The notes under the pieces were generated by a model. The model did not search any database. It saw only the letters and a program-made list of their open reading frames with translations, and was not told where the DNA came from. Positions 2,371 through 32,004 of a stretch of 32,004 nt of DNA are shown one piece after another. The stretch's first letter is position 1. Every line of letters starts with the position of its first letter. Origin of the DNA: Candidatus Roizmanbacteria bacterium RIFCSPHIGHO2_12_FULL_37_23 (GTDB lineage Bacteria; Patescibacteriota; Microgenomatia; UBA1406; HO2-37-13b); assembly GCA_001788095.1 (NCBI GenBank), contig MFZX01000012.1, positions 1-32,004 on the forward strand, in the 5' to 3' direction. Made by a program: the position numbers and the translations under genes.

Positions 2371-3120
2371 ATGATTGTATACAAGAACATAGATGAGATT
2401 GAACAAATGGAAAGAGCAGGAAAGATTCTAAGCAAAGTACTTGCTAGCGCATTGAAAAAACTGAAACCTGGACTTACAACGAGCTACATTGATCAAGAAA
2501 TTGAAAAGGAAATTATTTTACTAGGAGGTGAACCAGGTTTTAAAAAGGTAAAAGGTTATCATTGGGCATCGTGCATATGTATCAATGAGCAAGTAGTTCA
2601 TACACCACCTTCAAATAGGATAATTAAAAAAAGTGATGTGGTAACTATTGATACAGGTGTCTTTTTAAACGGGTTCCATACAGATTCAGCATGGACTATC
2701 CAGGTTGAAGTAAAAAATCCAGAAATTACACGATTTTTAGAAACAGGTCAGAGAGCTTTGAAAGAAGCGCTCAACGTAGCAAAAAAGGGTAATTATATAG
2801 GTAACATTTCAAAAACGTTTCAGGATGTAATTGAAGGAGCACACTATAGTATAGTTAGAGAATTAACCGGGCATGGTGTAGGCAAAGATCTACATGAAGA
2901 TCCATATATACCATGTTATATAGATAGACCTATAGAAAAGACACTTGAGATACAAGATGGTATGACGCTTGCCTTAGAGGTTATGTATTCTATGGGAGGT
3001 AGAGAAATCATCTATGAGCGCCCAGGTTGGTCAATTGAGATAGCTGATGGCAGTATTTCTGCTTCGTTTGAACATACCATCGCGATCAAACAAGGGAAAA
3101 CTTTGGTTTTAACAAAATAA
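2371..3120 (+). CDS. map: Methionine aminopeptidase, type I
   Basis: Removes the initiator methionine from nascent proteins; a cytosolic metalloprotease acting near the ribosome exit. The 249-residue length is typical of type Ia enzymes. The dinuclear metal ligands are all visible in order: Asp in IDTGVF, Asp in FHTDSAWT, His in GHGVG, Glu in LALEVM and Glu in SFEHTIAI. The substrate-contact His is in the QVVHTPP segment. It lies 9 bases after the adenylate kinase fusion gene and before infA, the conserved order adk-map-infA. The start ATG follows ATAGG, which is not a convincing ribosome-binding site. Confidence 0.96.
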   Translation: MIVYKNIDEIEQMERAGKILSKVLASALKKLKPGLTTSYIDQEIEKEIILLGGEPGFKKVKGYHWASCICINEQVVHTPPSNRIIKKSDVVTIDTGVFLNGFHTDSAWTIQVEVKNPEITRFLETGQRALKEALNVAKKGNYIGNISKTFQDVIEGAHYSIVRELTGHGVGKDLHEDPYIPCYIDRPIEKTLEIQDGMTLALEVMYSMGGREIIYERPGWSIEIADGSISASFEHTIAIKQGKTLVLTK

Positions 3121-3135
3121 TCGAAGCAAAAAACT

Positions 3136-3165
3136 TTGAAATGCACATTAGGTTTATGGTACAAT
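3136..3165 (+). promoter_or_regulatory. Promoter of infA (near-leaderless)
   Basis: TTGAAA at 3136-3141, an 18-base spacer and TACAAT at 3160-3165. The -10 box ends 9 bases before the infA ATG at 3175, so the predicted mRNA starts only 1 to 3 bases before the start codon. This argues that the upstream in-frame TTG at 3136 is the -35 box and not a start codon. It would give infA-rpmJ, and perhaps the rpsM block, their own transcription start within the operon. Confidence 0.7.
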
Positions 3166-3174
3166 ATATGCTTT

Positions 3175-3396
3175 ATGAAAAATGACGTCATTGTTGTTCA
3201 GGGAGAGGTTCTTGAGAACCTTCCTAATACCTTATTTAAGATTCAATTAGACGAGGAGTTTAAGAATAAAATCATAATATGTTACTTATCAGGAAAAATG
3301 AGAAAGAATTATATTAAAATCCTACCAGGAGATAGAGTAAGAGCTGAAGTAACGAAATATGACCCTGCAAGGGGCCGTATAGTCTATAGATTATAG
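3175..3396 (+). CDS. infA: Translation initiation factor IF-1
   Basis: Small OB-fold factor that binds the ribosomal A site during initiation. The 73-residue product begins MKNDVIVVQGEVLENLPN and carries the family signature ISGKMRKNYIRILPGDRV as LSGKMRKNYIKILPGDRV, ending GRIVYRL; length is normal (72-73). The reading frame is open further upstream to a TTG at 3136, but those codons overlap a good promoter and are not IF-1-like, so I chose the ATG at 3175. It lies between map and rpmJ as in many bacteria. Confidence 0.95.
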   Translation: MKNDVIVVQGEVLENLPNTLFKIQLDEEFKNKIIICYLSGKMRKNYIKILPGDRVRAEVTKYDPARGRIVYRL

Positions 3397-3414
3397 GATA
3401 TTATATGTATTGTT

Positions 3415-3528
3415 ATGAAAGTACGATCATCGATTAAAAAAATGTGTAAAAATTGTCAAATCGTGAAAAGAAAAGGGAGCTTATACATTACGTGCATAAA
3501 TCCTAAACATAAACAGAAACAAGGATGA
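3415..3528 (+). CDS. rpmJ: 50S ribosomal protein L36 (bL36)
   Basis: Smallest protein of the large subunit, a zinc-binding protein of 37 residues: [20 protein letters not shown] followed by a short tail. The zinc ligands C11, C14, C27 and H32 are all present (CxxC...C....H). Length matches the family (37-38). It is 18 bases after infA and before rpsM, the conserved infA-rpmJ-rpsM order. Stop codon is TGA, so TGA is a real stop in this genome. Confidence 0.95.
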
Positions 3529-6935: not shown

Positions 6936-7388
6936 ATGGCAAGAAAAAGTAAGGGTATAAAATATTACGAAGCAATTGGTAGACGCAAATCAGCTGTAGC
7001 TCGTGTTCGTCTCTATTTAAGTGCAAAAAACAGCGAATTGAATATACCAGATGAGACTATTAGTAAAGGCGATATATTTATAAATCATATCCGATTCAAC
7101 CAATATTTTCCAGGCTCATTATATGAAACGCTGGTTAATGCACCATTAATGTTGACAAACGCTCTTAATCGTTTCGTAGTATCTGTTCGTGTACTAGGAG
7201 GTGGCAAGCGAGGACAGTTAGATGCGGTGATCCTTGGGATATCACGTGCTCTAGAAAAAGTTGATAAAGAAAATCGAGTAAAACTTAAACCTCAAGGATT
7301 ACTCACTCGTGATGCACGAGTTCGTGAGCGTCGCAAGGTAGGAACAGGAGGCAGAGCTCGTCGTAAAAAACAATCTCCAAAGCGATAA
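6936..7388 (+). CDS. rpsI: 30S ribosomal protein S9
   Basis: Small-subunit head protein whose C-terminal tail reaches the P-site tRNA. The 150-residue sequence has EAIGRRKSAVARVRLY near the N-terminus, FVVSVRVLGGGKRGQLDAV in the middle and the expected basic tail RERRKVGTGGRARRKKQSPKR, ending with the conserved KR. It is slightly longer than the usual 130 residues because of an insertion near residues 30-45. Last gene of the ribosomal protein block. Confidence 0.97.
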   Translation: MARKSKGIKYYEAIGRRKSAVARVRLYLSAKNSELNIPDETISKGDIFINHIRFNQYFPGSLYETLVNAPLMLTNALNRFVVSVRVLGGGKRGQLDAVILGISRALEKVDKENRVKLKPQGLLTRDARVRERRKVGTGGRARRKKQSPKR

Positions 7389-7442: not shown

Positions 7443-8975
7443 ATGCGTAAACTAGCCCTTGTTATTCTCGATGGATGGGGTATAGGAAAAAAAGAGCAAA
7501 ATAACGCAATACATGTCGCTCAGACACCTTTCTTTGATCATCTTTGGAACACATATCCAAAGACAGCTCTTCAAGCAAGTGGAGAATATGTTGGTCTACC
7601 AAAAGGCCAAATTGGTGGCAGCGAAGTTGGTCATCTTACCATAGGATCTGGACGAGTAACTCTGCAAGAACTTGAACGCATAAATAAAAGCTTTATCCAA
7701 CCATATAAAGGAGGAGGGGTGGAGACTTTGTCAGTTTTTGAAAAGCTTATTTATCGCGCACAAAAAAAACAACTGCATATCATTGGGCTTGTCTCACCAG
7801 GAGGAGTACATAGTAACGAGACACATCTTTTTGAACTCCTTAAAATTCTTAAAAAGTATAAAGCAAAAAATCCTTATATACATTTCATAAGTGATGGTCG
7901 TGATACCATGCCGAAAAGTAGTCTAAAGAGCGCTTCACGTCTTATACAAATAATTCGTCATATTCGATTTGGTCGCATTGCAACTCTTGTAGGGAGGTTT
8001 TATGCGATGGATCGGGATACAAATTGGGATAGAACCGATATGGCATTTGAGCTTTTTGCCCATGCACAGGGCAAGAGGAAAAACCTAGGCCCTTCCGACC
8101 TAGAGAATCTTACTCAGGCTATTCAAAACTCATATGAAGTCAATATAACAGATGAATTTATAGAACCTACTATTATTGACACAAATTATCAAGGCATACA
8201 TCAAGGAGATCCTATATTATTTTTTAACTTCAGATCTGATCGTATGAAGCAAATTGTTTCAAAATTTCTTGAAAATTTTTCTCACTTAAATATCTTCACA
8301 ATGACACGATATGATGAGAGTTTTGAAGCACAACCATTATTTGAAAAAGAGTATATAAGAGATACGTTTAGTAGTATCATTGACTCGATTGGTTTAACTC
8401 AATTAAAAGCTGCCGAAACTGAAAAAGGTCCTCATGTAACATATTTTTTTCACGGAGGGCGTGATATCCAATTTAAGAAAGAGGTGCGCACAATAGAGCA
8501 AAGCAATAGAGTTCTTCACAATACAGCTCCTGAGATGAAAGTTAAAGAAATAACACGTAATATTATGAATCTTGTCGAACAACAAAACCCTGATTTTATT
8601 TTGGTCAATTTCGCTAATCCAGATATGGTTGGGCACACTGGTGATTTTCAAGCTGTGGTGGACGCAGTTGAGAAAGTAGATAGATATCTAAAATCACTTT
8701 GTTCTTACCTAACAAAACATCATTACATTTGTTGCATAACAGCTGATCATGGTAATGCAGATTTTATGTACGATCTTGGGACAGGCGAAAAACACACAGC
8801 ACATACTTTAAGCCCAGTGCCATTTATAGTCTATGACCCTTATGATAAAAAAAATCAACTCGTAGGCCTGAGTCAGAATGAAGCAAATGGTTTAAGTAAA
8901 ATTACAGGAACGATATTAGATCTTATGGATCTGAAACAATCAGTTTTTGAATTTGAAAGTCTTATAAATAAGTAA
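7443..8975 (+). CDS. gpmI: 2,3-bisphosphoglycerate-independent phosphoglycerate mutase
   Basis: Interconverts 3-phosphoglycerate and 2-phosphoglycerate in glycolysis and gluconeogenesis; cytosolic manganese enzyme of the alkaline phosphatase superfamily. The 510-residue length is typical. Visible motifs: ILDGWG at the N-terminus (first metal Asp), the nucleophile Ser60 in GGSEVGH, FISDGRDT, the substrate loop GRFYAMDRDTNWDR, FNFRSDRMKQI, the metal motifs NPDMVGHTG and TADHGNAD, and HTAHTLSPVPF. It is transcribed from a leaderless-type promoter and converges on the VanW gene with only 5 bases between the stop codons. It links functionally with pgk, fba and fbp further along the window. Confidence 0.97.
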   Translation: MRKLALVILDGWGIGKKEQNNAIHVAQTPFFDHLWNTYPKTALQASGEYVGLPKGQIGGSEVGHLTIGSGRVTLQELERINKSFIQPYKGGGVETLSVFEKLIYRAQKKQLHIIGLVSPGGVHSNETHLFELLKILKKYKAKNPYIHFISDGRDTMPKSSLKSASRLIQIIRHIRFGRIATLVGRFYAMDRDTNWDRTDMAFELFAHAQGKRKNLGPSDLENLTQAIQNSYEVNITDEFIEPTIIDTNYQGIHQGDPILFFNFRSDRMKQIVSKFLENFSHLNIFTMTRYDESFEAQPLFEKEYIRDTFSSIIDSIGLTQLKAAETEKGPHVTYFFHGGRDIQFKKEVRTIEQSNRVLHNTAPEMKVKEITRNIMNLVEQQNPDFILVNFANPDMVGHTGDFQAVVDAVEKVDRYLKSLCSYLTKHHYICCITADHGNADFMYDLGTGEKHTAHTLSPVPFIVYDPYDKKNQLVGLSQNEANGLSKITGTILDLMDLKQSVFEFESLINK

Positions 8976-8980
8976 TATGC

Positions 8981-10390
8981 TCAATCGGACGTGCCTACGA
9001 GAAAAACGGCCTGCCATGGTCGATATGAGGAGTAAAAGGTTTTATCCTGAATTATTGTACCATCAGCAGCAGTTACTTTATATTGAAAAGTAGATTTCCC
9101 ACCGTGAGCAGCCCACTCGATCTGCTTAACAACTCCTCGTTTTAAACCCGGATCGTCCTGATACGCAGGGTCAGGCGGAAGGTGCACATCGTAAACATTT
9201 GCATCAGATAGTTCGATTATACGTCCATCCTTTTTTCCATATAAAGAAAAAGTAAGAGAAGAGTTTGCTCGGTCAACATTTGTTTGTATTAAGATATGAG
9301 AATTTAAATCATTTTTGAATCTTAAATCAATCGATGGGCTATAAATTGTTGCATCAAAACCAGGTTTTCTGTCATATTCATAATATCGAACTCGATATCC
9401 ATGAGCATGTCTCTCTATTATTGGAAGCCCTGCATCTAGTGCGGCCCTGAAAAGCGTTGTTGAATCCTGACATACTCCTCCTCCATCTCCAAGTATTGTT
9501 TTTCCACTTTTAATAATGAGTGATTGTTTATATCCTGTTTCTGCAGAAATATCGCCGAGAGTATTTGTATAGGAAAATTCCTGACCGGGAGATATCAATA
9601 CTCCATGAATACGCGAAGCTGCAAGTTCAATATTATGAATTCGTTCAGGAGAGGATCCTCTAAAAGATGATCTTCCCTCACCTACTTTTTCTACAATACC
9701 AAGATCATTAATATCACTCAGTTTAATTTCTGGATCAATGTCTTCATTTTCGATACGGATTGATAAATCATCTGATGCTTCTCCAGCTCCGATACGTTCG
9801 ATAATGGTTTCAATCTCTGTCATAGCCTCCGCTTTTTTAATACGTGTTCCATATGCTTCTTTTTTAAAAGCTGATACCCGGCCATCCTTGATGGTAAACA
9901 ATGCATTGATAGGTTTTTTAGAATATTTTTTATCTAAACTATCAAAATAATTTACAAGAGGTTCAAGATGGTATTCTGGTGAGAATCTGAATGTATAAAG
10001 TTCAAGATTCAGTATGGTTGAAATTCGCTGATACCATCGTGAGAAGGAATTTGATGATCTCCCAATAGAAAAAGCTCTACTTTCAATAATGTCGATATTA
10101 TATGCAAATTTTAGTGTTTTACCTGAAAAAGTTGCAATAGTATCCTCGTAAATGATGGAGATGCTTGCTTTTTGAAGATTTTTGTTCTGAGATTCGAAGT
10201 AGTTTTTTACATCTTGACGTTTAGCTCCTGAAAAGTCGACATCGTTAACGTATACGTTTGGATAAACAGACTCCTTATATCGTTTATTCTCCTTTATTAT
10301 ATAGCCCGTAAGAGCTAGTAAAAATAATAGAGTAAATAGGAGAGAAAAAAGTAAGGATTTCGTTACAACACGGATGATGCTAATAGACAT
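8981..10390 (-). CDS. VanW family membrane protein
   Basis: 469-residue membrane-anchored envelope protein of unknown biochemical role. A single N-terminal transmembrane helix (about 12-31) is followed by a region resembling the putative peptidoglycan-binding domain seen in YoaR/VanW proteins (about 40-220), then the VanW domain (about 237-370, with SSFRGSSPERIHNIELAA, FSYTNTLGDIS and the GGGVCQDST motif at 303-311), and a C-terminal G5-like beta segment (about 420-466). VanW occurs in some vancomycin-resistance clusters but there is no other van gene here; these proteins are common in CPR genomes. It diverges from the solute-binding protein gene across 39 bases. Confidence 0.88.
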   Translation of the reverse strand: MSISIIRVVTKSLLFSLLFTLLFLLALTGYIIKENKRYKESVYPNVYVNDVDFSGAKRQDVKNYFESQNKNLQKASISIIYEDTIATFSGKTLKFAYNIDIIESRAFSIGRSSNSFSRWYQRISTILNLELYTFRFSPEYHLEPLVNYFDSLDKKYSKKPINALFTIKDGRVSAFKKEAYGTRIKKAEAMTEIETIIERIGAGEASDDLSIRIENEDIDPEIKLSDINDLGIVEKVGEGRSSFRGSSPERIHNIELAASRIHGVLISPGQEFSYTNTLGDISAETGYKQSLIIKSGKTILGDGGGVCQDSTTLFRAALDAGLPIIERHAHGYRVRYYEYDRKPGFDATIYSPSIDLRFKNDLNSHILIQTNVDRANSSLTFSLYGKKDGRIIELSDANVYDVHLPPDPAYQDDPGLKRGVVKQIEWAAHGGKSTFQYKVTAADGTIIQDKTFYSSYRPWQAVFLVGTSD

Positions 10391-28493: not shown

Positions 28494-28757
28494 ATGTTAA
28501 CTAAACAGGACCATAAACTACTTCACGAACTCGTCGATTCGCTCTTAAAGATGAATTCTAAGGAAAAAATGACTGATTTTTTATATGGAGTTTTAACGGA
28601 AAAAGAAATTAAAGAGATTTCAAGACGCTTAGAAATTGTTCATTTGATTAAAAAAGGACTTGCTCATAAAAAGATAGCTGAAAGATTAGAAGTTGGAGTT
28701 GCAACAGTTACTCGTGGTTCAAAAGAGTTGCAAAAAGGTCATTTTAAATATGTGTAA
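28494..28757 (+). CDS. TrpR-family transcriptional repressor
   Basis: DNA-binding protein of 87 residues in the TrpR superfamily; the family forms helical dimers with a helix-turn-helix. LTEKEIKEISRRLEIVHLI (34-52) and the helix-turn-helix 57-78 (KIAERLEVGVATVTRGSKEL) align closely with E. coli TrpR. Arg45 and Arg74 correspond to TrpR Arg54 and Arg84, which contact L-tryptophan, and the ATxTRGS recognition segment is kept. It lacks the long TrpR N- and C-terminal arms (E. coli TrpR is 108 residues). The trp-operator-like site across its own promoter suggests autoregulation. A ligand of tryptophan is plausible but not shown. It faces the second TrpR-superfamily gene. Confidence 0.82.
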   Translation: MLTKQDHKLLHELVDSLLKMNSKEKMTDFLYGVLTEKEIKEISRRLEIVHLIKKGLAHKKIAERLEVGVATVTRGSKELQKGHFKYV

Positions 28758-28771
28758 ATTCTTTTATGTCC

Positions 28772-28801
28772 AAAATGGCTCTATTCTTGATGGAGCTTTT
28801 T
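28772..28801. terminator. Weak bidirectional terminator between the two TrpR-superfamily genes
   Basis: GCTC at 28778-28781 and GAGC at 28793-28796 form a short stem with an 11-base loop, flanked by AAAA at 28772-28775 and TTTTT at 28797-28801, so either strand ends in a T-run. The stem is short and overlaps the last codons of the minus-strand gene; the call is tentative. Confidence 0.35.
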
Positions 28802-29116
28802 AAGTGTTTTCCAGTATCCACCACAGCCCTGGAACAGCCAGTGAGCAACCCTTGTTACCGTTGTAGTTGATACGCCGATTTTGTCTGCAACCTCTTGATA
28901 TGAATGTCCCCTTTTGAGTAAGCGAGCCATTTCCAAGCGATTTGCAAATTCAACAATTTCACTAAAAGTCAATAAGTCTCTTAAAAGTGCAGACATTTCC
29001 TTTTCATTTTTACACGATAAAAAAGCTTGCATTAATTTTCTTTCCCTTTCGTTTCGTGCCCTATAACTTTCTTGTTGTATAAAAGTAGCACTTTCAGATC
29101 TTCGAATGTTTGTCAT
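28781..29116 (-). CDS. TrpR-superfamily repressor, YerC/HisR-like
   Basis: 111-residue DNA-binding protein. An Arg/Glu-rich N-terminal extension (1-30) precedes the TrpR-like core: LLTFSEIVEFANRLEMARLLKRG (48-70) and the helix-turn-helix YQEVADKIGVSTTTVTRVAHWL (73-94), then GCGGYW, typical of the YerC/YecD branch. The recognition segment reads TTVTRVAHW, not ATVTRGSKEL as in the other paralogue, so the two should read different operators. From memory, comparative genomics in Firmicutes has linked YerC-type proteins (called HisR) to histidine genes. It is transcribed away from the attenuator leader and shares a 50-base divergent region containing a 20-base palindrome. Confidence 0.82.
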   Translation of the reverse strand: MTNIRRSESATFIQQESYRARNERERKLMQAFLSCKNEKEMSALLRDLLTFSEIVEFANRLEMARLLKRGHSYQEVADKIGVSTTTVTRVAHWLFQGCGGYWKTLKKLHQE

Positions 29117-29132: not shown

Positions 29133-29160
29133 TTGACAAATCAAATTACTATGTTAACAT
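29133..29160 (+). promoter_or_regulatory. Promoter of the attenuator leader
   Basis: TTGACA at 29133-29138, a 16-base spacer and TAACAT at 29155-29160, which ends 6 bases before the leader-peptide ATG at 29167. The predicted transcript therefore begins at or beside that ATG. The -10 box is inside the palindrome 29146-29165. Confidence 0.6.
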
Positions 29161-29165
29161 AGTAA
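29146..29165. promoter_or_regulatory. 20-bp perfect palindrome, candidate operator
   Basis: TTACTATGTTAACATAGTAA is a perfect inverted repeat of 20 bases centred between 29155 and 29156. It covers the -10 and part of the spacer of the plus-strand leader promoter and the -35 position of the minus-strand YerC/HisR-like gene. A dimeric repressor bound here would block the leader and could also control its own gene. The ACTA...TAGT ends recall the trp operator but with a wider spacing, in keeping with a different paralogue. Binding is inference. Confidence 0.65.
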
Positions 29166-29166
29166 C

Positions 29167-29232
29167 ATGTTAATAAATAAGACAGATTGGATTTCTACAA
29201 TTAATCATCACTTCCTCGCGAAGGCGGGGTAA
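29167..29232 (+). CDS. Leader peptide with tandem His codons
   Basis: A 21-codon reading frame beginning MLINKTDWISTINHH and ending FLAKAG, stop TAA at 29230-29232. It starts 6 bases after a -10 box, so it is probably read from a leaderless mRNA. Codons 14 and 15 are CAT CAC (29206-29211), two His codons in a row, and there is one Trp codon at position 8 (29188-29190). Attenuator segment 1 starts within the second His codon and segment 2 overlaps the stop codon. This is the arrangement of amino-acid leader peptides such as those of trp and his operons. The peptide itself should have no other role. Confidence 0.7.
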   Translation: MLINKTDWISTINHHFLAKAG

Positions 29233-29279
29233 GTTTTATAGCATTAATTACTTAGACCCGCCACCCGGCGGGTTTTTTT
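29210..29279 (+). promoter_or_regulatory. Four-segment transcription attenuator
   Basis: Three competing hairpins can be drawn. 1:2, 29210-29219 (ACTTCCTCGC) with 29224-29234: 10 pairs, one G-U and one bulged T, loop GAAG. 2:3, the antiterminator: GGCGGG 29223-29228 with CCCGCC 29257-29262, extended by TAAGT 29230-29234 with ACTTA 29250-29254, 11 pairs. 3:4, the terminator. A ribosome stalled at the His codons (29206-29211) would cover segment 1 and free segment 2, allowing the antiterminator; a ribosome reaching the stop codon would cover segment 2 and allow termination. A stall at the Trp codon would leave segment 1 free, which fits less well. Confidence 0.75.
29256..29279 (+). terminator. 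Rho-independent terminator of the attenuator
   Basis: Stem ACCCGCC (29256-29262) with GGCGGGT (29267-29273), loop ACCC, seven pairs, followed by seven T in a row (29273-29279). It lies 21 bases before the ATG of the 431-residue protein, so unless it is prevented from folding, transcription from the leader promoter should stop here. Confidence 0.85.
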
Positions 29280-29300
29280 ATTAGTTTCATATATATAAAA

Positions 29301-30596
29301 ATGAATAATATATTACAAACAGAAAAAATCACATGCAAAGATATTGCAAAATTAATTCCTAACGTCGACGGTGTTATCCCTAGTGGGAGTAGTGAAAAAG
29401 TAATTCGTAAGGAATTTCAAAAGAGAGATTCATTACAGAATGACAAGATTAAAAACGTATATAGTCAATTAGAGTCAATTTTTAAAGCAGCTGAGGTTGT
29501 TGGTTTAGACCTGACTGCTAATGATGCGTCGCGACTAGTTCGAGATGTTTTGGAAGGTTCAAAAAATGGATCACTCTCATTTCCCTCTATGTACAAAGGA
29601 GTGAGTTTTAATCCGAAAACATACGATCAATCTCGAGGCAGGGGAGAATGGATTGTTTTGTTAGATTTTTTTTCTCTTATGCGTTCCTTTGTAAATGAAA
29701 CGACAGTAATGAATCAAGAGAATCCGAAATTTCTTATTCTTGACGCTGGATTATATTGGATTATTAATCTACTTGGCATAGAAGGTATAAAGCTGAAAAA
29801 TCAAACCCCTCGTGGAGCGGCTTCCGAATTGCTTGAAACTATTAAAACATCATTGCAAAAAACTGAGTTTAAAGAAATCGTTGAGTGTAATAGAATTAGA
29901 AATGCATATCTCAGAGCCATCGCACAACAGTTTCCCGCAAACATGGCACCCCAGGTTTTAAGTTTAAAAGATATTTGGTATGACGATTCGTTCACACAGT
30001 TTCTTAGTAAAGCAATAGAGCTATTTTGCACAAGAGGTATTAAAGGGTGGAAAGTGTCAAGGCCCGTATTTTACCAGCGATATATGCCATATAGCCCCTG
30101 GGTGACTCCTTTGGTCGCTGCTGAGCAAATTTTTGTTGGGCAACGATTCGGTTTCTCTGGTATTTTATCACCCACTGCAGAAGCGGGTTGGAATAAAGCC
30201 ATCGATCAATTCAGTCGATATATGAATACAAAAACGTATATTGCTTGGATGTATTCACGCAAAATCGGAAAAAAACTTTCATATGAATGGGTCCCATTCT
30301 TTTCAGATTCAGAAGATAAGCTTAGGAGTAAGATGCAAATGGCTCAGACGGTCGATCCAAGCGCTAATGAACTGGTAATAAAGTTTGTTACGCCATTTGT
30401 AGAACCTGAAATGATAGCAAACATGAATGACGCACTGAAAAAAAGGAATTTGAAAAAACTATCGGAATTTGTATTTAATTTTATGAATAGAATTGAAAAA
30501 CAAGCATGCGAATTTCTCGATTCTGAAAAAGATATTCCACTCACACCTCTTAATCAAATTGGTTGGCTCACAAATTTTCCTCCTGGAATATGTTAG
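29301..30596 (+). CDS. Uncharacterised histidine-free protein under attenuator control
   Basis: 431 residues; I do not recognise the family. No signal peptide or convincing transmembrane helix is visible, so it is probably cytosolic. The N-terminal 110 residues look helical and charged; the middle has FLILDAGLYWIINLLGIEGI (about 145-164); the most motif-like part is FYQRYMPYSPWVTP followed by AAEQIF and SPTAEAGWNKAIDQF (about 255-300). The protein contains no histidine at all, while it has nine Trp and five Cys, so it would not be starved by lack of His. It follows a His-codon leader and attenuator and is next to a YerC/HisR-like repressor gene, which suggests it is made when histidine is short. 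Whether it is an enzyme, a tRNA-related factor or something else is open. Confidence 0.75.
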   Translation: MNNILQTEKITCKDIAKLIPNVDGVIPSGSSEKVIRKEFQKRDSLQNDKIKNVYSQLESIFKAAEVVGLDLTANDASRLVRDVLEGSKNGSLSFPSMYKGVSFNPKTYDQSRGRGEWIVLLDFFSLMRSFVNETTVMNQENPKFLILDAGLYWIINLLGIEGIKLKNQTPRGAASELLETIKTSLQKTEFKEIVECNRIRNAYLRAIAQQFPANMAPQVLSLKDIWYDDSFTQFLSKAIELFCTRGIKGWKVSRPVFYQRYMPYSPWVTPLVAAEQIFVGQRFGFSGILSPTAEAGWNKAIDQFSRYMNTKTYIAWMYSRKIGKKLSYEWVPFFSDSEDKLRSKMQMAQTVDPSANELVIKFVTPFVEPEMIANMNDALKKRNLKKLSEFVFNFMNRIEKQACEFLDSEKDIPLTPLNQIGWLTNFPPGIC

Positions 30597-30645: not shown

Positions 30646-31359
30646 ATGTTGGAGCTAAAAAATCTTACTGTTTCCATTGGTCGCAAAAAGATTTTGCACA
30701 ATATTTCCTTTGATTTCAAAAAGGGGAAAACGTATGCTATCATGGGACCAAATGGCTCTGGAAAGTCTACGCTTGCAGCAACAATAATGGGTCACCCTGC
30801 TTATGAACTTAATAAAAAATCAAGGTTACTATTTAACGGAAAGACGATCAATAATGATCCTCCACATAAACGATCAGAAAAAGGGATTTTTCTTTCCTTC
30901 CAAACTCCTCTTTCACTTTCTGGAATAAATATTTATCAACTTATGAGATATGCGCTTGATGGGAAATTAGATCCTCTTGAAATTCGCAAAAAAGTTCAAA
31001 AATACGCCAAACAGCTCAAGATTTCCGAGGAACTTCTCTCCCGATCTCTTAATGAAGGATTTTCAGGTGGAGAAAAAAAGAAGCTGGAAGTAATCCAGGC
31101 AGCCATGCTTGATCCTGAGATCATTTTTTTTGACGAGGTCGATACCGGAGTTGACGTCGACGCAATGAGGATAATTGCTTCGTTCATCAATTCTTTGAAG
31201 AAAAAGGGGAAAACAATAATTCTTATTACTCACTATAATCGGATTTTAAAGCATGTGAAACCTGATGAGGTTATTGTGATGAGGGATGGAAAAATTATTG
31301 TTTCAGGAAAGAAAAATCTAGCTGATCAAATAGAGAAGGAGGGATACGAAGGAGTATAA
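30646..31359 (+). CDS. sufC: Fe-S cluster assembly ATPase SufC
   Basis: Cytosolic ABC-type ATPase of the SUF system; with SufB it forms the scaffold on which Fe-S clusters are built. 237 residues from the ATG at 30646: Walker A GPNGSGKST (34-42), Q-loop SFQTPLSLSG, the signature FSGGEKKKLEV, Walker B IIFFDEVDTGVDVDA and switch His in ITHYNR. Length is slightly shorter than the usual 250. The frame is open upstream to 30493, inside the previous gene, but those codons overlap a good promoter and are not SufC-like, so the ATG behind TACAAT is preferred. sufB follows after 20 bases. Confidence 0.95.
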   Translation: MLELKNLTVSIGRKKILHNISFDFKKGKTYAIMGPNGSGKSTLAATIMGHPAYELNKKSRLLFNGKTINNDPPHKRSEKGIFLSFQTPLSLSGINIYQLMRYALDGKLDPLEIRKKVQKYAKQLKISEELLSRSLNEGFSGGEKKKLEVIQAAMLDPEIIFFDEVDTGVDVDAMRIIASFINSLKKKGKTIILITHYNRILKHVKPDEVIVMRDGKIIVSGKKNLADQIEKEGYEGV

Positions 31360-31379
31360 AAAAAATCCGCCATTGAACT

Positions 31380-32004
31380 ATGACACAACAATACACCGAT
31401 CTTGAGTTCGACTACAAATTCGGCTTTGCGATGCCGGACAAATCACTATTTAAAACCCAGAAGGGGATAAATAATGAAACTGTTCTCGCTATTTCAAAAA
31501 TAAAGAATGAACCACAATGGATGACTGACTTTCGACTCAAAAGTTTTAAGATTTTTCTAGAAAAGAAAATGCCAGAATGGGGAGCGGATTTATCAGGAAT
31601 AGACTTTGATGAAATAGTTTATTTCGCAAAGTCTATAGACAAACAGAAAGGTTCTTGGGAAGACCTTCCAAAAGAAATAAAAGAAACATATGATAAAATT
31701 GGTGTCCCGCAAGCTGAAAGGGATTTTCTCGCTGGAGTATCAGCACAGTATGATTCTGAGGTCGTTTATGAAAGTATTCAAAAAGAATTAGATAAGCAAG
31801 GTGTAATTTTTTGCGATATGGATACCGCAGTTCAAAAGCATTTTGATATAGTAAAAAAATACTTCGGGACATTAATTCCACCGTATGATAATAAATTTGC
31901 AGCACTAAATTCTGCCGCATGGTCAGGTGGATCATTTGTTTATGTACCAAAAGGAGTTCATGTAAAACTTCCCTTACAGGCTTATTTCAGAATCAATTCA
32001 GAAC
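31380..32004 (+). CDS. sufB: Fe-S cluster assembly protein SufB, 3'-truncated by the window
   Basis: Scaffold subunit of the SUF complex. The frame starts at the ATG at 31380 (MTQQYTDLEFDYKFGFAMPD) and stays open to the end of the window, 208 codons. Typical SufB segments are visible: NEPQWMTDFRLKSFKIFLEK, IPPYDNKFAALNSAAWSGGSFVYVPKGVHVKLPLQAYFRINSE near the break. The N-terminal region is shorter than in E. coli SufB (495 residues), as in other small forms. Together with sufC it forms the start of a suf operon; SufD/SufS/SufU genes would be expected next. Confidence 0.94.
   Translation, partial: MTQQYTDLEFDYKFGFAMPDKSLFKTQKGINNETVLAISKIKNEPQWMTDFRLKSFKIFLEKKMPEWGADLSGIDFDEIVYFAKSIDKQKGSWEDLPKEIKETYDKIGVPQAERDFLAGVSAQYDSEVVYESIQKELDKQGVIFCDMDTAVQKHFDIVKKYFGTLIPPYDNKFAALNSAAWSGGSFVYVPKGVHVKLPLQAYFRINSE

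Follow-up and report, generated by a model that had tools for sequence, protein, structure and literature searches.

A histidine-poor family of predicted pseudo-synthetases and its candidate histidine-shortage switches in candidate-phyla bacteria and Micrarchaeota

This article concerns a gene at positions 29,301–30,596 of a 32,004-nucleotide stretch of contig MFZX01000012.1 from Candidatus Roizmanbacteria bacterium RIFCSPHIGHO2_12_FULL_37_23 (assembly GCA_001788095.1), the whole of which is referred to as the window. The gene encodes a 431-residue protein without a single histidine, and it stands behind a short leader that carries tandem histidine codons and attenuator-like hairpins. Its family would be one of pseudo-synthetases: the HIGH and KMSKS motifs, which handle ATP, are lost, and the proteins would be made when charged His-tRNA runs short. 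We estimate at roughly 0.78 the probability that such a family is controlled by histidine shortage, through attenuation in the bacteria and through a +1 frameshift in the archaea. The leader, the hairpins, the geometry of the frameshift sites, the depletion in histidine, the operon with histidyl-tRNA synthetase (HisRS) and the loss of motifs can all be read from the sequences.

A family poor in histidine

The start codon (ATG, 29,301), the strand and the length of the reading frame were all verified. An earlier note on this DNA, made from its letters, had counted no histidine, nine tryptophans and five cysteines in a protein where six to nine histidines might be expected, and the recount returned the same composition. 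Histidine makes up 184 of the 9746 residues (1.89%) in the 30 other open reading frames (ORFs) listed for the window, which gives an expectation of about 8.1 in 431 residues and, from this background, a probability of 2.7e-4 of finding none. Only four of 76 other ORFs of at least 350 codons, taken from the window and 20 related loci, are equally free of histidine: three are histidyl-tRNA synthetases from the family's own archaeal operon, and the fourth, named by eye from its sequence, is membrane pyrophosphatase-like.

The earlier note did not recognize the family, and indeed it is one without an entry in Pfam, NCBIfam or PHROGs. Used as a single query, the window protein gave no convincing match with Pfam, NCBIfam or PDB sequences, nor with plasmids, phages or viral contigs, and a single-sequence search of the species-genome collection gave no matches. 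The family likewise had no match in PHROGs, nor in viral contigs when its alignments served as the query. One PADLOC match, obtained with the window protein only, was weak (E 0.0073, 14.4 bits) and was taken as chance. Among 144 related genomes, the gene is found in the window's own genome only. Across 379 genomes of the phylum, four carry the family at E <1e-14 (the window's own, G193, G163 and G412), the other six of ten matches (E 0.013–0.99) being dropped as chance.

An alignment of four members then recovered 11 loci in the species-genome collection. Six are bacterial, from Komeilibacteria (L012), Doudnabacteria (L013), Magasanikbacteria (L019), Peregrinibacteria (L021), Nomurabacteria (L022) and one further bacterium (L015). 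The archaeal ones are from Micrarchaeota (L014, L016, L017, L020) and an uncultured archaeon (L018). L002, L003 and L004 are further labels for the loci L013, L015 and L019, while L011, L023–L027, L037–L044 and L047–L051 repeat members already counted. With the window included, the bacterial relatives number seven and span several candidate phyla. When 301 genomes of the archaeal phylum were searched with a profile, a second, more distant group was added, homologous to the near one (hhalign probability 98.9%, E 4e-17), so that the archaeal set comprises 15 relatives, 5 near and 10 distant. The 12-row alignment of the near family is marked by an invariant YKGVSxNP segment and, in 8 of the 12 rows, by a C-terminal FPxGxC. 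In a tree of 11 members bacteria and archaea are intermixed (L015 stands beside L016–L018), several branches being poorly supported (0.10–0.50).

None of the 20 residues is as strongly depleted in this family as histidine. Eight of the twelve near members have none (the window, L014, L016, L017, L018, L019, L020/L036 and L021), and the others have 2 (L015), 4 (L022) or 5 (L012 and L013), a total of 16 in 4762 residues (0.34%). This is 0.18 times background; the ratio is 0.02 in six histidine-poor distant members and 1.33 in three distant members that have no frameshift site (L095, L096, L097). All other residues stay at or above 0.56 times background, and tryptophan is enriched 2.04-fold. The depletion is a trend of the family, not a rule. 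Because it avoids histidine, such a protein could be made during histidine shortage; for amino acid pathways, the literature describes a trend towards low cognate bias (PMC4209129).

Leader, proposed attenuator and repressors in the bacteria

In all seven bacterial relatives, in-frame tandem histidine codons lie shortly 5′ of a terminator-like hairpin, upstream of the gene. Six of them have a separate ATG leader, usually of 15–23 residues: besides that of the window (Table 1), these are MTVNILQPLHHHQIISP (L012), MEHMQNIFSKLSHHSNSSLEGVG (L013), MNTLPKNIVSHHQVNSS (L015), MKQKTTQKLNHHKICPK (L019) and MKNNFSQQVNHHNAS (L021). The exception is L022 (1626–1991), where the two histidines lie inside the C-terminal tail of a YerC-like gene, directly before the terminator, as if regulator and leader had been fused into one ORF. 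Beyond the histidine pair the leader peptides share little, and a tryptophan codon is present in that of the window alone (1/7). How often would such leaders arise by chance? Six 300-nucleotide upstream regions, L022 being left out, were searched for ATG leaders of 10–30 residues holding a histidine doublet, and five have one; shuffled versions yield one in 7–55 of 2000 trials for each region. The miss is L021, whose leader begins 302 nucleotides upstream. Doublets of any other residue are found in at most two of the six regions.

The layout of the window follows the textbook order, with the histidine codons followed by a pause hairpin at whose end the leader stop codon lies. The terminator hairpin itself occupies 29,256–29,273 and is followed by the T run. 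According to the proposed mechanism, a ribosome starved at the tandem histidine codons would free the segment after the pause hairpin, the antiterminator would form and the gene would be transcribed; when histidine suffices, the ribosome would reach the leader stop codon and the terminator would form instead. In silico folds of L012, L013, L015 and L022 behave in this way, giving the antiterminator when a ribosome is masked at the histidine codons and the terminator when it is masked at the stop codon. Transcripts ending at the 5′ arm of the terminator also fold into the antiterminator, both in the window (at the tabulated energy) and in L021 (−17.2 kcal/mol). Histidine-responsive control is thus well supported by sequence, while the working of the switches is something we infer from it. 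The his operon leaders of E. coli and other bacteria have the same elements in this classical order, from a leader peptide with tandem histidine codons through pause hairpin and antiterminator to an intrinsic terminator. The present leaders differ from it in having two or three histidine codons, not a long run, and in being combined with a YerC-type repressor. They also control a single pseudo-synthetase gene, in candidate-phyla bacteria without a detected histidine pathway.

Table 1. Features of the window around the family gene
Feature	Coordinates	Strand	Details
First of two TrpR-family proteins in the window, 87 aa	28494..28757	+	PF01371 67.6 bits (gathering 27)
YerC/HisR-type TrpR-family repressor, 111 aa, divergent from leader	28781..29116	-	PF01371 67.1 bits; TIGR02531 57.4 (cut-off 42.2)
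-35-like hexamer TTGACA	29133..29138	+	Read from sequence; candidate -10 TAACAT 29155-29160, spacer 16
14-bp palindrome CTATGTTAACATAG, candidate repressor operator overlapping promoter	29149..29162		From sequence
Leader peptide MLINKTDWISTINHHFLAKAG	29167..29232	+	ATG 29167 to TAA 29232
Tandem His codons CAT CAC, proposed sensor	29206..29211	+	Tandem His kept in 7/7 bacterial relatives
Pause hairpin (arms 1:2) CCTCGC-GAAG-GCGGGG	29214..29229	+	Free fold of leader
Antiterminator (arms 2:3), GGCGGG with CCCGCC plus second short helix	29223..29262	+	Minimum-energy fold -15.5 kcal/mol, transcript ending at terminator 5′ arm
Intrinsic terminator (arms 3:4) ACCCGCC-ACCC-GGCGGGT plus T run	29256..29279	+	-15.3 kcal/mol
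Family gene	29301..30596	+	431-aa protein without His; predicted class Ic synthetase fold, by homology with relative L015

A YerC-type gene lies beside six of the seven bacterial relatives (the window, L012, L013, L015, L019 and L022). The neighbours in the last five score 60.7–92.4 on TIGR02531 (yecD_yerC) and far below the cut-off on TrpR. YerC is described as the histidine repressor HisR of Gram-positive bacteria (PMC9413887). Leader codons and repressor type are therefore two independent lines that point to histidine as the sensed amino acid. The earlier note had read the attenuator as sensing histidine and not tryptophan, and both lines bear it out. The repressor probably adds a second, transcriptional histidine input. 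In the HisR systems set out in that source, the same TIGR02531/PF01371 protein lies by a histidine-related gene, with a palindrome over the promoter; the regulons given there, for Gram-positives and some others, consist of genes for making and transporting histidine (PMC9413887), whereas here the gene belongs to a new family and the candidate operator is read from the sequence. An 18-base version of the palindrome (29,149–29,166), searched with up to three mismatches, has a single match in the window's genome.

The other TrpR-family protein (28,494–28,757) is linked to the family gene by position alone, and falls just under both NCBIfam cut-offs (TIGR01321 TrpR 50.5 against 67.25; TIGR02531 yerC 41.7 against 42.2). 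On the far side of the family gene, 50 bases 3′ of it and on the same strand, the window ends with SufC- and SufB-like genes, identified by eye (30,646–32,004). In the Magasanikbacteria locus L019, an ORF that looks by eye like a transposase (1917–2486) sits between the YerC-like gene and the histidine leader.

Candidate frameshift sites and gene neighbours in the archaea

The archaeal members have no histidine-doublet leader with a terminator, and their long frame usually has no start codon at its beginning. Instead, there is a short 0-frame ORF whose own ATG mostly follows a good ribosome-binding site (GAGGTG, GGAGGTG). It runs as far as adjacent codons for Leu and His (CTT followed by CAC or CAT), where slipping by +1 at CTT (to TTC) opens the long frame. 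Most of the relatives in Micrarchaeota would be gated, without a leader, by programmed +1 frameshifting: when His-tRNA is awaited at CAY (CAC or CAT), the ribosome would slip from CUU to UUC and enter the long frame, and one that does not slip would make a dead-end peptide of 12–50 residues. Since the slow codon is one for histidine, slipping would become more frequent with falling His-tRNA. The argument that the tRNA could re-pair from CUU to UUC is our own.

By a scripted check, an in-register +1 site is present in 11 of the 12 histidine-poor members among the 15 archaeal relatives: L090 (=L016), L091 (=L017), L092 (=L018), L093 (=L014), L020, L083, L084, L085, L086, L087 and L046. The site reads GTT CAT in L085 and CTT-CAY in the other ten. 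The three relatives with normal histidine content (L095, L096, L097) begin with a plain ATG, and none has a site. Before the site, the long frame has no ATG, GTG or TTG in seven of the 11 carriers (L091, L093, L020, L084, L085, L087 and L046). In L093/L014 and L020, the 0 frame encodes a conserved N-terminal segment, GGGRR..GTEI..QPFL, and the +1 frame the remainder of the protein, a split that is hard to explain without a shift. On reading, a Shine-Dalgarno-like purine stretch, GGAAGG(G) or AAGGAGG, precedes the site in eight of the 11 and is absent from L087, L093 and L020. A typical cassette is GGAAGGGATTTA-CTT-CAT. The 18-base cassette GGAAGGGATTTACTTCAT, allowing at most one mismatch, has eight occurrences in 15 genomes, all of them near the family gene and on its contig; a reversed-pattern control, at up to three mismatches, gave 0–3 matches per strand and genome.

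The site is not confined to the family. It also precedes an unnamed gene without histidine codons in L083 and an AbrB-like gene in L092, and reading of the sequence finds it in the AbrB-like genes of L091, L085 and L086. Two successive NTT-CAT sites are present in the upstream AbrB-like genes of L085 (about 6990–7060) and L086 (complement, about 7750–7790), where it seems that two histidine codons would have to be slipped. Some short upstream ORFs (uORFs) are rich in histidine, as in L018 (1463–1513, MKDMKKHHEKHHGKHG), or have it near their end, as in L014 (2489–2548) and L020 (2429–2482), which finish in ..AHCHR and ..AHSHC; these are possible further leaders.

The nearest known device is the autoregulation of bacterial release factor 2 (RF2, prfB), in which, as the source describes it, a short 0-frame ORF, an internal Shine-Dalgarno-like stretch, CUU in the P site, a slow A-site codon and a long +1 frame are combined as here (PMC5009743). 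In the archaeal sites, unlike RF2, the histidine codon CAY takes the place of UGA, so that His-tRNA would be sensed, and the genes concerned are the family gene and neighbouring AbrB-like genes. As regards hungry codons, the same 2016 frameshifting review holds that such shifts could make starvation-specific proteins and states that no examples were known (PMC5009743). For the Archaea, a 2021 review counts one case only of −1 programmed frameshifting in its account of them (PMC8211752).

In four archaeal loci (L083, L084, L085 and L086) the family gene precedes HisRS and is accompanied by an amino acid racemase, with 0–1 histidine per protein. The racemase matches TIGR00035/PF01177 where scanned (L083, L084), and HisRS was recognized by TIGR00442 or PF13393. 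L085 also encodes, between racemase and HisRS, a histidine-free protein of 215 residues (9093–9737). Just upstream of the family gene of L083, behind a CTT-CAC site of its own, lies a gene for another histidine-free protein, of 254 residues (2757–3527, complement); a first impression that it was HisG-like was dropped, no Pfam or NCBIfam model matching it. HisRS was surveyed more widely by locating its frame by motif, which allowed it to be read in 18 of 30 loci and not in the other 12: it has no histidine in 12, one in three, and 3, 6 and 8 in the others. The HisRS of the window's own genome (L111; G000 C8:2604–3797) has one histidine in 409 residues. In G193, a second and weaker HisRS-like gene (C18:5153–6331; 193 bits, below the cut-off) lies about 27 kb from the family gene.

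Regulators of another type also keep company with the family. An AbrB-like gene with an ACT domain is found upstream of the family gene in L090 and L093, and an AbrB gene in L088; it is plausible that the AbrB-like/ACT protein is an amino acid sensor. Repeats of GTGGGAA/TTCCCAC, often paired, occur near archaeal family-gene promoters (L087 6286–6303; L088 2689 and 2753; L090 6134–6151; L020 2410–2427; L092 8347 and 8425; L093 4639 and 4766) and make up a candidate operator for these regulators.

Fold, function and competing explanations

Predicted from its single sequence, the window protein gave a pLDDT (predicted local distance difference test score) of 36 only, and its fold is therefore assigned by homology. 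The usable model is the AlphaFold prediction of relative L015 made with the 12-row family alignment (pLDDT 91.4, predicted template modelling score 0.90). Its best solved match is an archaeal tyrosyl-tRNA synthetase (TyrRS), 2cyb_B, with a Z score of 21.6, 258 aligned residues, 3.2 Å and 14% identity, and the 50 PDB matches that Foldseek listed are TyrRS and tryptophanyl-tRNA synthetase (TrpRS). A class Ic synthetase fold is thus well supported by this model. Among the three folds that the earlier note had named for comparison, it is the aminoacyl-tRNA-synthetase-like one that was found, not a family without a link to amino acids.

The fold is predicted to be that of TyrRS and TrpRS, but HIGH, KMSKS and any detectable sequence similarity to these enzymes are missing here. 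A motif search found neither HIGH nor KMSKS in any of 21 members. PF00579 matched none of 12 members at E ≤5, nor did it match the family gene in any of 10 genomes (E ≤10), while hhalign found no link to the seven class Ic sequences, out of 17, that passed the motif filter. Class Ic genes over the cut-off are present elsewhere in all 10 genomes examined, TyrRS and TrpRS being separate from the family gene. With the motifs and the class Ic profile missing and separate class Ic genes present, the usual ATP activation of an amino acid is unlikely. In G612 (L052, 1378–3345; excluded from every count), a TrpRS-like protein has in front of it a degenerate domain that is synthetase-like and of the type seen in the distant group; the superfamily may act as an accessory domain of synthetases.

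What, then, would the protein do? Only one of 19 bearer genomes has convincing HisA and HisF (G529, 232 and 189 bits), the other 18 having none or weak barrel matches; most bearers therefore likely rely on outside histidine, and the known pathway does not include this protein. The earlier note had guessed at a component of histidine acquisition or of a response to histidine shortage: the response is supported, acquisition as a function is not. The company of HisRS, the pseudo-synthetase fold and induction by shortage would fit a partner of HisRS, acting on histidine or His-tRNA as an accessory or trans-editing factor, a proposal that we put forward tentatively. Taken as a whole, it is rather probable that one family is served by two unrelated ribosome-based histidine sensors, attenuation in bacteria and hungry-codon +1 frameshifting in archaea, and that the protein is a pseudo-synthetase with a new role.

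Several observations weigh against this interpretation. The full-length fold of the window favours the terminator even with a ribosome at the histidine codons, the antiterminator being obtained only in the truncated transcript, and L019 folds into pause hairpin and terminator, with no antiterminator found in masked or truncated folds. L012, L013 and L022 have the attenuator yet hold 4–5 histidines each, about half to two thirds of background; the earlier note had set orthologues with the attenuator and a normal histidine content, or a fold unconnected with amino acids, as what would refute it, and the outcome is mostly in its favour. In the archaea, L088 (G529) is histidine-free yet has a plain ATG and no site, a start codon of the long frame precedes the site in four of the 11 carriers (L090, L092, L083 with TTG, and L086), and the opposite-strand control of the scan for sites at neighbouring genes gave three matches, all in the GC-rich L086. 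HisRS is poor in histidine in 15 of the 18 genomes read, including genomes without the family, which is why the idea that this operon makes HisRS histidine-free was dropped; the neighbour therefore supports the principle and not shared control. Finally, neither profiles nor sequence comparison linked the family to TyrRS, and the fold match rests on one predicted model.

Could the switch sense tryptophan, with a TrpR repressor and a Trp leader governing a protein resembling TrpRS and TyrRS? The PF01371 membership of the repressors, the one tryptophan codon in the window's leader and the 2.04-fold enrichment in tryptophan would suit it, as would the best cis-regulatory near-match of Rfam, Trp_leader at 29,196–29,281. 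That match reaches 24.4 bits where gathering is at 41, however, and no Rfam model exceeds its threshold; tryptophan appears in one of seven leaders against the histidine pair in all seven, the divergent repressor (28,781–29,116) is of YerC type and scores 34.6 on the TrpR model TIGR01321 (cut-off 67.25), the archaeal sites stall at histidine codons, and enrichment in tryptophan is the opposite of what selection under its starvation should produce. Tryptophan sensing is accordingly very improbable. That the absence of histidine is an effect of chance or composition comes closer still to negligible: three attenuator-bearing relatives do hold 4–5 histidines and some unrelated ORFs are also free of it, but the near family as a whole has 16 in 4762 residues, six distant members stand near 0.02 times background, and no other residue falls below 0.56. 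The archaeal junctions might also be overlapping uORFs with translational coupling, internal starts or assembly errors, given the four long frames of 11 with a start codon before the site, the multi-histidine uORF near L018 and the histidine-ending ones in L014 and L020. Yet an NTT-CAY junction common to 11 genomes is not an assembly error, seven of the 11 long frames lack an earlier start, the conserved segment precedes the site in L093/L014 and L020, and the 18-base cassette recurs eight times, always near the family gene, which leaves this explanation distinctly unlikely.

As for function, a tRNA-dependent enzyme in the manner of the cyclodipeptide synthases (CDPSs), making a small molecule from aminoacyl-tRNA, is unlikely. 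CDPSs have a class Ic-like fold and, like this family, no HIGH or KMSKS; the invariant Gly-x-Ser (YKGVS) after the first strand recalls their catalytic serine, a positional match that we infer without superposition; the distant group keeps a Y-x-x-x-E with the spacing of Y178 and E182, which are among the catalytic residues given for CDPSs (PMC7566563); and aminoacyl chemistry would suit a gene that shares its operon with HisRS and an amino acid racemase. Against this, PF16715 matched nothing in three bearer genomes (E ≤10) or 12 members (E ≤5), the alignment of the near family lacks the Glu of Y-x-x-x-E, so that the catalytic set would not be kept whole there, and by eye no oxidase or modification gene adjoins. 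No CDPS is among the 50 PDB matches listed, which excludes nothing. A missing or alternative enzyme of histidine biosynthesis is improbable: a HisC-like aminotransferase lies directly 3′ in L087 and L088 (best model TIGR01141, 197.5 and 185.2 bits against a cut-off of 276.55), but with 18 of 19 bearers lacking convincing HisA/HisF, the known route is unavailable to most.

Attenuators, HisR and class Ic folds are all of known kinds; the family, the combination and the archaeal device were not found in the open-licence PMC papers searched. To the pseudo-synthetases is added a family that Pfam, NCBIfam and PHROGs all lack. Should the archaeal sites work, they would be an example of starvation-specific hungry-codon frameshifting, testable with simple reporters, and a naturally occurring switch of gene control, with frameshifting set off by the shortage of one charged tRNA. 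Its product and operon, with the racemase and HisRS, would be nearly free of histidine and hence translatable during the shortage itself. In microbes that are uncultivated and depend on hosts, the family connects avoidance of a cognate amino acid with a specific sensor, and it points to histidine as a nutrient that limits them.

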